Positions 19,642 through 24,846 of a stretch of DNA of 46,526 bases are shown here, in pieces. Source of the stretch: Flavobacteriales bacterium. Its GTDB lineage: Bacteria; Bacteroidota; Bacteroidia; UBA10329. The position numbers and the translations under genes are program-made. Every line of letters begins with the position of its first letter. Position 1 is the stretch's first letter. Below the pieces are notes generated by a model. It had not been told where the DNA came from, did not search any database, and saw only the letters and a list, made by a program, of their open reading frames with translations. The stretch spans positions 1 through 46,526 of the forward strand of contig JAIPBJ010000014.1 in NCBI GenBank assembly GCA_021739625.1. Direction: 5' to 3'.

Positions 19642-20658
19642 ATGCGCCACCTGTTCATTGCGCTCGCTTTGGTCATAGGCATGGCCGGTTGCCATCAGGA
19701 CCGGGCCATGCCCACCACGGATGAATCCTGTTCCTATCTCTACGCCACCACACCCGGTGACTATCAGATGGGCGGGGTGCAGATGATTGCGCTGCGCGAA
19801 GGCTACAAGGTGTGGACCAAGCGCCACGGCAACAGCCCGATGAAGGTGCTGATATTGCACGGTGGCCCGGCCGGGACGCACGAATACTTGGAGAGCTTCC
19901 AGAGCTTTTTCCCACAGGCGAACATCGAGTTCTATGAATATGACCAGTTGGGTTCCTACCGCTCTGACCAGCCCACGGACATGGGCCTCTATACCATCGA
20001 GCGGTTTGTGGAGGAGGTGGAGCAGGTGCGCGTGGCCCTTGGGCTGGACAGCACCAATTTCTTCCTCTTGGGCCACAGCTGGGGCGGCATTCTGGCTTTG
20101 GAGTATGCGCTGAAGTATCAGCACAACATGAAAGGCCTCATCGTGAGCAACATGACGGCCGATTTCCACAAGTATGCGGCCTACAACAACAAGCTGCGCG
20201 AGGAGCTTCGCCCTTCGCTGGTGGACACGCTGAAGGCCTTTGAGGACAAGGGCCTCTATACCGACCCGCTCTATCTGGGGCTGGTGGAGAAGGAATTCTA
20301 TGCCAAGCACATCTGCCGCATCTATCCCTTTCCAGAGCCTGTGGCGCGGAGTTTCAAGCATTTCAACATGGAGGTGTATGCCTACATGCAGGGGCCGAGC
20401 GAGTTTGTGCCGGGCGGCATTCTCAAGGATTGGACGGTTTGGGACAGGCTGAAGGAGCTCCGCGTGCCGACCCTCACCGTGGGCGCGAAATACGACAGCA
20501 TGAACCCCGAAGAGATGAAAGAGATGGCCGCCCTTGTGCAGAACGGCCAGTATCACTACTGCCCCAACGGCAGCCACATGGCGCTATGGGACGACCAGCA
20601 GGTGTATATGAACGGGGTGGTAGGGTTCATTCATGGGGTGGGGAAGGGAGACAGATAG
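19642..20658 (+). CDS. Alpha/beta hydrolase, proline iminopeptidase type, lipoprotein-like
   Basis: The product has 338 residues. The N-terminus MRHLFIALALVIGMAGC is a probable lipoprotein signal with Cys17, although Met at -3 is not the most usual lipobox residue. The hydrolase core has LHGGPAGTHEY (oxyanion HGGP), EYDQLGSYRSDQP, and the nucleophile elbow GHSWGG with Ser146. The acid is probably in VGAKYDSMNP, and the base His is in NGSHMALWDD. HGGP plus the DQ-G-S motif is typical of the S33 proline iminopeptidase family. It would act in the periplasm or at the outer membrane on small peptides. It is tightly coupled to the preceding hydroxylase gene (1-base gap), although no joint pathway is evident. 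Confidence 0.88.
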   Translation: MRHLFIALALVIGMAGCHQDRAMPTTDESCSYLYATTPGDYQMGGVQMIALREGYKVWTKRHGNSPMKVLILHGGPAGTHEYLESFQSFFPQANIEFYEYDQLGSYRSDQPTDMGLYTIERFVEEVEQVRVALGLDSTNFFLLGHSWGGILALEYALKYQHNMKGLIVSNMTADFHKYAAYNNKLREELRPSLVDTLKAFEDKGLYTDPLYLGLVEKEFYAKHICRIYPFPEPVARSFKHFNMEVYAYMQGPSEFVPGGILKDWTVWDRLKELRVPTLTVGAKYDSMNPEEMKEMAALVQNGQYHYCPNGSHMALWDDQQVYMNGVVGFIHGVGKGDR

Positions 20659-20681: not shown

Positions 20682-21824
20682 TCACCGCCTGCTCCTCGGC
20701 ATTCTGAAAGCGAAACCTATCGAAGGTAGTACGTGGGGCCGTTCCCCCTTTTGAATGAAGGGGTACGGGGCACCAGTGCTCCATAAGACCATGAGTCCTG
20801 CATTGCCAGAAAAGCCTTTTCCGATGTTGACCTTTCCTCGAAGTACAACGAAAGCCTCAAGGCTATTCTCTCCGAACGATAGTGCGCCTCCACCCCCGAC
20901 CATCACCCCTGAATTTTTCTTCAAAAAGGCCATCCCCGTTTCCATGCTCCACTGAAACAGAGGCATAGCGGTACCGAGACCACTTCGGAGGTAATAGTTG
21001 GCAAGGCCATTCTCTTTAAAAGGCACATAGAGCGTGTAATTCAATGTGAGCAAGGCGGGGCCGAAAAAGGTCAGGCCGAATTCGCTCTTGCCTGTGGCGA
21101 CAGTACTTGTTGAATCCAAAAGCTTGCCTTGCAGCTTCATTGATGCCCTTTCCTGCCTAGCTTCATTCCTTATCTGAACACGTTCGGTTTTGGAAAGTCT
21201 GGCGTATGCGACCATGGCACGGTGTTGTTTGGCCGAGGGTATCCGATAGCCCATGTAGGTGCTTGGCCACACAGAGAATTCGTTACCGTAAGGATCGTGG
21301 TTGAATTTGGGTGTGTAATCCGAGTTCACGGCCATCAGGTAAACATTGATTCCGAAAAAGAAGCCCTTTGGGGCCTGATATCGATAGCCCAAGGAACCGA
21401 ACCAGTTGAATTCAATGCGTGTATCTGTCGTGTCGCCACTGTAGGGTCGTATATATGGAGGGACTATCACATTCCAGAGCCCAGCGGATAGCACAAATCG
21501 ACTGCGCCTTCTGCCAAGATCGACCCCGACACCATACACCATATTGAACCCATCCTTGTCCTCGGCATTTATCACAATGGGTCTGCCAGTGCCGCACCTT
21601 ATATTCATTGTGACCGCATCGGTCATTATGGGAGATGCCTCTATATTGAACGAATGGCCGATGCCCAGTCCGAAAATCTCATTATAGACAGCTACCCGTC
21701 CAAGAAGTGGACGAAAGGAGGTCTTTCGTCCAAGGGTGTCGCGGGCATCAATATCTGGCAACTGGGCGAAGGCCGTGGTAAGCGGCAGGATAAGCATACA
21801 GATGAATAGGATGAAGCGAATCAT
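20682..21824 (-). CDS. Probable outer-membrane beta-barrel protein, function unknown
   Basis: The product has 380 residues from MIRFILFICMLILPLTTAFA, a signal peptide ending at FAQ. The rest is rich in alternating polar/hydrophobic strands with aromatic ends (for example FVLSAGLWNVIVPPYI, WFGSLGYRYQAPKGFFFGI, FGLTFFGPALLTLNYTLYV), and it closes with a penultimate-type barrel strand (PSIGFAFRMP). A charged stretch at about 205-230 (RLSKTERVQIRNEARQERAS) would be an outside loop or plug. I do not recognise a family. A longer frame of 17 codons precedes the ATG but contains the -7 box TACTTTTG. It is convergent with the hydrolase gene (23 bases between stops) and upstream of no obvious partner. 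Confidence 0.75.
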   Translation of the reverse strand: MIRFILFICMLILPLTTAFAQLPDIDARDTLGRKTSFRPLLGRVAVYNEIFGLGIGHSFNIEASPIMTDAVTMNIRCGTGRPIVINAEDKDGFNMVYGVGVDLGRRRSRFVLSAGLWNVIVPPYIRPYSGDTTDTRIEFNWFGSLGYRYQAPKGFFFGINVYLMAVNSDYTPKFNHDPYGNEFSVWPSTYMGYRIPSAKQHRAMVAYARLSKTERVQIRNEARQERASMKLQGKLLDSTSTVATGKSEFGLTFFGPALLTLNYTLYVPFKENGLANYYLRSGLGTAMPLFQWSMETGMAFLKKNSGVMVGGGGALSFGENSLEAFVVLRGKVNIGKGFSGNAGLMVLWSTGAPYPFIQKGERPHVLPSIGFAFRMPRSRR

Positions 21825-21856
21825 TCTGGTGCCCTGCTTTTGACCAATGATTGAAA

Positions 21857-21887: not shown

Positions 21888-22538
21888 TCAGTCCAACCTG
21901 AACAGCCCCCTTTTGACCTCATCCTCGGCATAGATCACTTCGGCAGCGCGGTTCACACTCTGATCGAAGCTGTACATCCGCGCCATGACATCCTTGCGGA
22001 TCAGGGTGCGGTGCAACCGGGTGCGTTTGAACTTCTCCTGGGCCACCTCGGCCGTCTGTAGCAGATCGGCAGCGGTGGCGATGGCCGCTATCTGGGCAGG
22101 GGTCATGCCTTTATTGGTGAGTTCGGTGGCGAACTCCACGGCCAGCGCGTGCTGCACCTTCAGGTAGATGACGTAGTTGGCCGGCTGGCGCGTCATGCGG
22201 TCGTGCACCTTGAAGTTGAAGACCGTGTACATCCCCCGCGTGCCGAAGGCCTTCTGGGCAAAGAAGCGCAGATCGGCCATGGTGCTGCGGGCCTGTTTCA
22301 CGGCCGTGTTCAAATCGGCCGTGTAGCCGGACAGTTGGTCCATCGTGGTCTCGTCCGTGTATTGGGCTACTGCCAGATTGATCGCGTCCGTCCAGTTCTG
22401 CGCGAAAGGCGTGTCGAAGTCGGGGTCAAAGTCCATGAAGTCGGCCATATACTCTGTGAAGAGCTTCTGCCTCACGGTAGAGTTCTGCACTGATGCGGCA
22501 TCTGTGATGCGATAGGGGCGGTCGTTCAGTTCTTCCAT
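21888..22538 (-). CDS. Hypothetical helical cytoplasmic protein
   Basis: The product has 216 residues starting MEELNDRPYRITDAASVQNS, with host-like codon use, so it is a real gene. There is no signal peptide or membrane segment. It is predicted mostly helical by composition (for example QLSGYTADLNTAVKQARST and MTPAQIAAIATAADLLQTAE), with a basic C-terminal third (EKFKRTRLHRTLIRKDVMAR) that ends in a helix pattern YSFDQSVNRAAEVIYAEDEV. I do not recognise the family, and no function is proposed. It ends 24 bases before the barrel-gene promoter on the same strand and could be upstream in the same unit. Its own 5' side borders the AT-rich island with the 54-bp palindrome. Confidence 0.75.
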   Translation of the reverse strand: MEELNDRPYRITDAASVQNSTVRQKLFTEYMADFMDFDPDFDTPFAQNWTDAINLAVAQYTDETTMDQLSGYTADLNTAVKQARSTMADLRFFAQKAFGTRGMYTVFNFKVHDRMTRQPANYVIYLKVQHALAVEFATELTNKGMTPAQIAAIATAADLLQTAEVAQEKFKRTRLHRTLIRKDVMARMYSFDQSVNRAAEVIYAEDEVKRGLFRLD

Positions 22539-22881
22539 GATGTTGTCGGTTCAAATGGTGCTTCGGTAGGCGGGCTGCGCTATCTGCGGCCTTAGCTTTT
22601 TCAGATGTAGGGGTAGTATTGCGTTTAGGATGGATTACTTGGAGACATGATTACAAATATATTCAAAGGGATTGAAAGATATGTCTATATGATTGGAGAT
22701 GTTGAATAAATGAAAGATACTCTTGCATAGATGTTTATTAATGGGAGAGCTCTCCCATTAATAAACATCTATGCAATAATCATGCGCATTTGAACAAAAC
22801 ATATAATCGGATAATTTTAATTATGGGCGGAAGCACAAGTAGATTAAGCGGCTATCTATATGTTTTGCGCGATATACACCA
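22539..22881. other. AT-rich intergenic island
   Basis: From about 22630 to 22870 the base composition becomes clearly AT-richer than on either side. No convincing gene was found. A short open frame from TTG at 22790 (MNKTYNRIIL) switches to unlikely composition within 30 codons. The dominant feature is the perfect palindrome at 22723-22776. Confidence 0.6.
22723..22776. repeat. Perfect 54-bp palindrome
   Basis: Two 27-base arms meet with no spacer at 22749/22750. The left arm begins TTGCATAGATG and the centre is GGGAGAGCTCTCCC. Every position pairs, and symmetry breaks at the next base on each side (C left, T right). As DNA it could extrude a cruciform; as RNA it would form one very long hairpin. 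No T tract follows it on either strand. Confidence 0.97.
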
Positions 22882-23130
22882 ATGCCTTTTCATCGTTCCA
22901 AGTCATTATTTCTTTGGGAGGATGTCACCGTGCGGGAGTCTGCATGTGCTGTGCCTAGGCCGGTCGATGATGTTGTGTGCATCGAGATGTACTCCACCAT
23001 CAGCTTCATCACCGATGATCTGATACAGGTATATGCCGGCAACAATTGCGTGGCCTACACCGGTGACGATGTGTTCGTCTATCCTCCGAGATACTGGGAG
23101 CGGGTGGTGGCAAGGCTGGAAGTGAGGTAA
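22882..23130 (+). CDS. Small hypothetical protein or gene remnant
   Basis: The frame has 82 codons from ATG (MPFHRSKSLFLWEDV). The second half (EMYSTISFITDDLIQVYAGN, then DDVFVYPPRYWERVVARLEV) has the GC-rich third positions of the host genes and reads like a folded domain. The first half is more AT-rich. The frame remains open 13 codons further upstream without a start, so this may be the surviving 3' part of a longer gene. A box resembling TAnnTTTG (TATGTTTTG) precedes it at about 22858. Its stop TAA directly abuts the lysS stop on the other strand (TAATTA). No family was recognised. Confidence 0.4.
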   Translation: MPFHRSKSLFLWEDVTVRESACAVPRPVDDVVCIEMYSTISFITDDLIQVYAGNNCVAYTGDDVFVYPPRYWERVVARLEVR

Positions 23131-24846
23131 TTACCCCGCCACCTCCACCGTCAACCCTTCCTCTGTCTTCGTCACCTTCGTCAATCCCAGTTTCCCCAAC
23201 GCCTTCATGCTGATGTCCCACTGCTTGCCGCTGAGGCCGCTGCGGATTTTCAGGTCGTTGAGGTCCATGGGGCTGCTTTTGGAGAGGATGTCGAAGATGA
23301 GTTTCTCGTTGCCGCTCAGTTCCACCTTCTTGGTCTCCTTCTTTTCGGGCTTCATCTGCGGGAAAAAGAGGATGTCCTGAATGGTGTGCTTGTCGGTGAG
23401 CAGCATCGCTAAACGGTCCATACCGATGCCAAGGCCCGATGTGGGCGGCATGCCATATTCCAGGGCACGTAGGAAGTCCTGATCGATCATCATCGCCTCA
23501 TCGTCACCACGGTCGGCAAGGGCAAGCTGATGCTCAAAACGTTGGCGCTGGTCGATGGGGTCGTTCAGTTCGCTGTACGCATTGGCGATCTCCTTGCCCG
23601 TGGCGAAAAGCTCGAAACGCTCCACCAGACCGGGCTTGCTGCGGTGCTTCTTGCACAGGGGCGACATCTCCACCGGATAGTCGGTGATGAAGGTGGGCTG
23701 CACGTAGTTCTTCTCGCATTTCGCTCCAAAGATCTCATCGATCAGCTTGCCCTTTCCCATGGTGGGATCGATCTCGATTCCGAGATCCTTGCAGACTTGA
23801 CGCAGGCCGTCCTCTTCCATGGCGCTGATGTCGATGCCCGTGTGGGTCTGGATAGCCTCGAACATCGTCACGCGCGGATAGGGCGCTTTGAAGTCCAGCT
23901 CCACATCGCCATACATCACCTTGGTGCTGCCGTTGAGGTCGATGCAGGCCTTCTCCAGCAACTGCTCGGTGAAACGCATCATCCACTCATAGTCCTTGTA
24001 GGCCACATAGATCTCCATGGCCGTGAACTCCGGGTTGTGGGTGCGGTCCATGCCCTCGTTTCGGAAGTTCTTCGAGAATTCATACACTCCATCGAACCCG
24101 CCTACGATGAGCCTTTTCAGGTACAACTCGTTGGCGATGCGCATGTAGAGCGGGATGTCCAGCGCATTGTGGTGCGTGATGAACGGCCGTGCCGCTGCCC
24201 CGCCCGGAATGGGTTGCAGGATGGGCGTTTCTACCTCTAAATAGCCTTTCGAATTGAAAAATTCGCGGAAGGAATTGAAGAGCTTGGTGCGCTTCACGAA
24301 AACCTCCTTCACTCCGGGATTCACCACGAGGTCCACATAGCGTTGGCGGTAGCGCATTTCGGCATCGTGCACCGCATCGTGTACCACGCCATCGGCATCG
24401 GTCTTCACCACCGGCAATGGGCGCAATGATTTTCCAAGGAAGGTGAACTCCAGCACATGCACGCTGGTCTCGCCCACCTGTGTCTTGAACACGAAACCGC
24501 GCACCCCGATGAAATCACCACGGTCCAAATGCTTCTTGAACACCTCGTTGTAGAGAGTCTTATCCTCGCCCGGGCACACCTCATCGCGGTTGAAATAGAG
24601 CTGGATGCGGCCTGTGCTGTCCTGCAGCTCCGCGAACGATGCCTTACCCATGATGCGCTTGCTCATCACGCGGCCTGCCAGCGAAACGTCCTTCATTTCC
24701 GCGCCTTCGTCAAACGTGTCACGGATGCCTTCAGCCGTGTGGGTAACGGTGTATTCTGCAGCGGGAAACGGGTCGATGCCGAGGTTGATGATCTCCTGCA
24801 GGGCCTCGCGCCTCACCTGTTCCTGTTCGCTCAATTCTTGATGCAT
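23131..24846 (-). CDS. lysS: Lysyl-tRNA synthetase (class II)
   Basis: The product has 571 residues from [19 protein letters not shown]. The N-terminal OB-fold anticodon-binding domain includes [20 protein letters not shown]. The class II catalytic core carries motif 2 ([20 protein letters not shown]) and motif 3 ([20 protein letters not shown], then [11 protein letters not shown]). After motif 3 comes an extra C-terminal segment of about 70 residues ([20 protein letters not shown] onward) that looks like a small winged-helix extension; longer LysRS forms of this kind occur in Bacteroidota. The frame stays open far upstream, but that part is antisense to the neighbouring hydrolase. The perfect -7 box TATCTTTG at 24867-24874 fixes the start. 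Confidence 0.97.

Follow-up and report, generated by a model that had tools for sequence, protein, structure and literature searches.

The window, i.e., the whole stretch of DNA analyzed here, comprises 46,526 nucleotides and represents contig C178 in the draft genome of a Flavobacteriales bacterium (3.69 Mb in 179 contigs, 95.9% complete). Between lysS and the gene of a 216-aa protein, both located on the minus strand, it harbors a small island with a perfect palindrome (Table 1), which lies approximately 355 nt beyond the lysS stop codon. The features are arranged in the order hydrolase (+), 382-aa protein (-), 216-aa protein (-), island, ORF 22882 (+), and lysS (-). The AT-rich intergenic setting pointed out in the initial annotation is confirmed by a GC content of 28-38% over positions ~22600-22900 vs. 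55% in the sampled genome.

Table 1. Features of the window around the palindrome (coordinates of the window).
Feature	Position	Strand	Basis
Alpha/beta hydrolase	19642..20658	+	Adjoins lysS in several congeners
382-aa protein	20682..21830	-	Similar gene between hydrolase and lysS in G008
216-aa all-helical protein of an unnamed family	21888..22538	-	Predicted structure; paralogues in the same genome
AT-rich orphan island (~300 bp) bearing the palindrome	22600..22900	.	Composition; congener comparison
TATATTTG, putative -7 promoter element (Bacteroidota) for the 216-aa gene	22654..22661	-	Pattern match only
Perfect palindrome (27+27, no spacer)	22723..22776	.	Exact reverse-complement identity; single copy in own genome
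ORF of 82 aa, remnant of the C-terminus of a ~305-aa lipoprotein	22882..23130	+	Homologous from about residue 29
lysS, lysine--tRNA ligase	23131..24846	-	

A variable interval next to lysS

The content of the interval between the hydrolase gene and lysS differs between congeners, and the site can thus be regarded as a variable slot. While the two genes are only ~20 bp apart in the congener G006, the same interval in the window accommodates the island along with two genes and the remnant of a further one; elsewhere, it contains a gene similar to that of the 382-aa protein (G008) or the gene of the ~305-aa lipoprotein (G003). Since hydrolase and lysS are adjacent in a congener, the island is considered to be recent or variable DNA. 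No DNA homologue of the island rising above noise was found across eight congeners, nor was any found in 395 genomes of the class, and no form with a single arm or a quasi-palindrome was seen in them. The genes on both sides are neighbors in relatives, which makes a chimera of unrelated pieces unlikely for this contig.

Regarding the genes flanking the island, residues 29-82 of ORF 22882 exhibit 72% identity to a 307-aa lipoprotein frame in G003, and as the match is limited to the C-terminal 54 residues of the lipoprotein, the ORF is a remnant. The palindrome occupies the spot at which the lipoprotein gene has had its front part lost or replaced. The same C-terminus is found in a 311-aa frame of G005 (C25), and a 416-aa frame on C108 of the genome itself holds a weaker match. 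The 216-aa product is confidently modeled as an all-helical bundle (mean pLDDT 92), for which a structure search with the predicted model gave no PDB match at E <= 0.001. It belongs to no Pfam or PHROG family, its only NCBIfam match is sub-threshold, and no relative was found in the genome contigs collection. Several paralogues are present in the own genome (C118, C58, and a fragment on C148), none of them with a comparable palindrome beside it. Its possible promoter element, TATATTTG, is read from the pattern TAnnTTTG, which we take to be the Bacteroidota -7 consensus. Both neighboring products had been proposed as partners of the palindrome, a role that neither a C-terminal lipoprotein fragment nor a predicted helical bundle, probably not a recombinase, can be expected to fill.

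A perfect, spacer-less and single-copy palindrome

The 54-bp palindrome consists of two arms of 27 bases, TTGCATAGATGTTTATTAATGGGAGAG and CTCTCCCATTAATAAACATCTATGCAA, which are exactly self-complementary and meet without a spacer at the center GAGCTC, as initially described. The symmetry also stops abruptly on both sides as described, given that a gapped local alignment of the 100-bp flanks scores 9.0, compared with a mean of 9.25 for shuffled sequences. A repeat call with 64-nt arms of 72% identity is the 27-bp arms diluted by flanks that align no better than shuffles, and a larger decayed inverted repeat was rejected on the same ground. Within the window, the runner-up among the zero-spacer palindromes has arms of 10, and the longest arms do not exceed 10 either in 60 Markov simulations of the window or in 2000 simulated islands. 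Within 1,533,198 bases sampled from this genome, the arms of zero-spacer palindromes follow the distribution expected by chance up to ~11, with outliers of 12, 14, 20, and 27, and the expected number of palindromes with arms of at least 27 in these sampled bases is ~1e-10. With regard to the simulated arms and this expectation, chance is no explanation for the palindrome.

The search for the arm in the genome and in relatives, which had been proposed as a check, returned no other copy. With a 20-mer of the arm and up to 3 mismatches, no second copy was found beyond background in the own genome and 58 relatives, a reversed-pattern control also giving matches. Only short matches (E >= 0.0026) were obtained in 395 genomes of the class, the exact arm was not found in viral contigs or genome contigs, and no matches were found in phages and plasmids, so that a phage or plasmid element was rejected. 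Dispersed palindromic repeats of the REP or MITE type are likewise intergenic palindromes, but they are multi-copy, whereas this one occurs once in the genome, and no direct repeat that could represent a target-site duplication was found at its boundaries; a mobile repeat or IS end was rejected on these two grounds. Altogether, the palindrome is highly non-random, apparently orphan, and tied to no known element.

Three further orphan zero-spacer palindromes were encountered, namely one of 20+20 in the own genome (G000:C30:48-87, i.e., L102:48-87), one of 16+16 in a congener (G006:C3:2405-2436, i.e., L162:2405-2436), and one of 20+20 inside a predicted ORF of the more distant G029 (L087:691-730). 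The two flanks of the congener palindrome match different places in congeners, making it uninformative as a route to an ancestral form.

Origin of the palindrome and alternative readings

We regard it as somewhat more probable than otherwise that the palindrome has no function and was left behind by local template switching as the DNA was replicated, i.e., by a one-off copying error. A short self-complementary core, AGAGCTCT for example, would prime a growing strand, which would switch to the complementary or nascent strand, copy the freshly made sequence backward over ~27 nt, and then return to its normal template. A single event of this kind would yield two adjacent, perfectly inverted arms that end abruptly and have unrelated flanks, and it may have arisen, or been tolerated, in fast-changing intergenic DNA with a broken lipoprotein gene. 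Perfect hairpins are known to arise by template switching in one event (PMC8794818), and in yeast palindromes are created or elongated in this way (PMC5677150). The perfect inverted copy and abrupt edges that characterize this process are found at the locus. Likewise, the template-switch palindromes of E. coli and yeast, including conversions of quasipalindromes to palindromes and elongations, have perfect arms that originate in a single event and end abruptly, and they are unrelated to mobile repeats (PMC7202029; PMC5677150; PMC8794818). In contrast to these documented cases, for which an ancestral sequence is available for comparison, no pre-palindrome sequence was found in any relative; we infer both the switch and its priming core, as well as the lack of function. 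A copy of 27 nt is also long for a simple switch, which speaks against this origin.

The palindrome could also act as RNA, forming a bidirectional hairpin that serves as a transcription terminator or insulator in the interval from lysS to the 216-aa gene, or that protects the 3' end of a transcript. Either strand folds with about -39 to -42 kcal/mol (z -9.7), the strongest fold between the two genes, and the hairpin would lie just upstream of the possible TATATTTG promoter element. In E. coli, most inverted repeats near gene ends (arms of at least 8, spacer of up to 8) are part of intrinsic terminators (PMC6060812), and the palindrome shares with Rho-independent terminators a strong intergenic RNA hairpin between transcription units. 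Unlike these, which have a GC-rich stem, a short loop, and a U-tract, it has neither U-tract nor loop, its base is AT-rich, ATTAATAAAC follows the GC core, the lysS stop codon is distant, and a terminator scan is silent on it. Among the terminator-like hairpins in the sampled genomes, arms mostly measure 12-15 and loops 3-11, A/T tracts are frequent, and those of the own genome, with such arms and loops, do not resemble the palindrome. Moreover, selection on RNA does not explain symmetry that runs through the loop, since the center of a hairpin becomes an unpaired loop anyway and no zero spacer is needed, whereas a zero spacer would be expected if synthesis switched to the complementary strand, or if a short self-complementary core primed the switch. 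A role as RNA is therefore held to be unlikely, while keeping an appreciable chance. Regarding Rfam, only eukaryotic microRNA models matched, far under their gathering scores, and these were dismissed as generic hairpins.

Telomere-resolvase targets are spacer-less, near-perfect palindromes of about 40-60 bp. This likeness to the targets of telomere phages such as N15 and PY54 and of Borrelia bears on the possibility that the palindrome is a DNA site for a protein, be it an operator, a cruciform-bound site, or the target of a recombinase or telomere resolvase. Spacer-less perfect dyad symmetry is typical of symmetric protein sites, a zero spacer favors DNA over RNA, and the possible promoter element of the 216-aa gene lies ~60 bp downstream. 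However, no telomere resolvase or protelomerase (PF16684) was detected in the 95.9%-complete genome, so that a resolvase site was rejected; the surroundings are chromosomal housekeeping genes with no recognised phage genes nearby. More generally, a dimer site of 54 bp would be long, the edges carry neither target duplication nor repeat, and the adjacent 216-aa product is predicted to be all-helical and falls in no DNA-binding or recombinase family. The operator and the recombinase target suggested in the initial annotation thus find no support, the arm being single-copy, and a protein site is considered quite improbable.

Similarly improbable is an assembly or library artefact. In this case, the metagenome-assembled genome would owe the symmetry either to a fold-back that was falsely joined or to a longer inverted structure that collapsed. 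A k-mer of 55 is common in assembly, and a palindrome of 54 bp is roughly the longest that such a graph can cross. The length of the palindrome is therefore close to this k-mer, the assembly is a draft, and the second palindrome of the genome (C30:48-87) lies only 48 bp from a contig end. Against this, this assembly and two others contain further zero-spacer palindromes, which measure 32-40 bp, indicating that their length is not bound to the k-mer, and their presence in a congener and a more distant relative would not be expected if the artefact were specific to this contig. Neither flank is repeated elsewhere in the genome, and the genes that border the palindrome are neighbors in relatives, so that the join is not one of unrelated pieces. 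The earlier argument that a fold-back artefact would be expected to mirror more of the flank is a reasonable one, and this two-sided synteny reinforces it.

Survival, SbcCD and palindromes of the same kind

If the palindrome is a scar of template switching, its retention could be due to its size, 54 bp being far under the documented lethal sizes, and perhaps also to an apparent lack of SbcCD. For 54 bp, the initial statement that such palindromes are normally unstable in bacteria goes too far: in E. coli, the palindromes documented to be lethal are hundreds of bp long and are so only if SbcCD is present, one of 460 bp being tolerated in its absence (PMC4245961). Nevertheless, the lower limit of SbcCD cleavage in vitro corresponds to palindromes of 20-36 bp (PMC4245961), and a 54-bp palindrome could hence be a substrate.

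SbcD (TIGR00619) has no match in the own genome, while 13 of 14 control genomes are positive, and congeners give either nothing or weak matches under the cut-off. Nor was a convincing SbcC found in the genus, where matches span only the first ~50 model positions (all 14 controls being positive) and sit in open frames of mostly 370-420 aa; these partial matches suggest another ATPase, possibly RecF. The lineage is thus apparently devoid of SbcCD, which could let palindromes of such size persist; any causal role of this lack is inferred, and the census is small. SbcD exceeds the cut-off in 8 of the 59 sampled genomes of the relatives set, and since it is unrecognised in most sampled class members, its absence is a permissive background and not a specific explanation. 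Of the explanations initially put forward for survival, the two in best agreement with the missing arm homologue and the lack of a convincing SbcC or SbcD are recent formation and a special state of repair; the functional readings are mostly unsupported.

Taken alone, the palindrome is a curiosity. If the scar reading holds, palindromes of this type would make it possible to read past strand switching from the genomes of uncultured bacteria. A comparison of lineages with and without SbcCD would then test in nature whether this nuclease limits how long genomic palindromes can be. As a more speculative and rather unlikely extension, the orphan zero-spacer perfect palindromes (arms of 16-27) would form a recurrent class in an SbcCD-less lineage, generated by one repeated process and persisting without a hairpin nuclease. 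Pairs among the four palindromes share their outer letters, with TTGCA.. found twice and ATTCAA.. found twice, which could be due to chance or be the sign of an element class; under the recurrent-class reading, these letters might mark it.

Other repeats and hairpins were noted in the course of the sampling. G006 has a hairpin of 22+22 with a spacer of 1 and A/T tracts, which looks like a two-way terminator. Several tandem copies of a GTAGAGACGCRATGCATYGCGTCTCTAC-type palindromic repeat lie near a contig end (L205:121-260), and a CACAAAGGCACACGAAG-type inverted repeat is present at 2897-2998 and at L114:459-498. Finally, the 1.53 Mb sampled from the own genome contain 6 occurrences of AACCACAAAGG, as against none in 0.42 Mb of G006.
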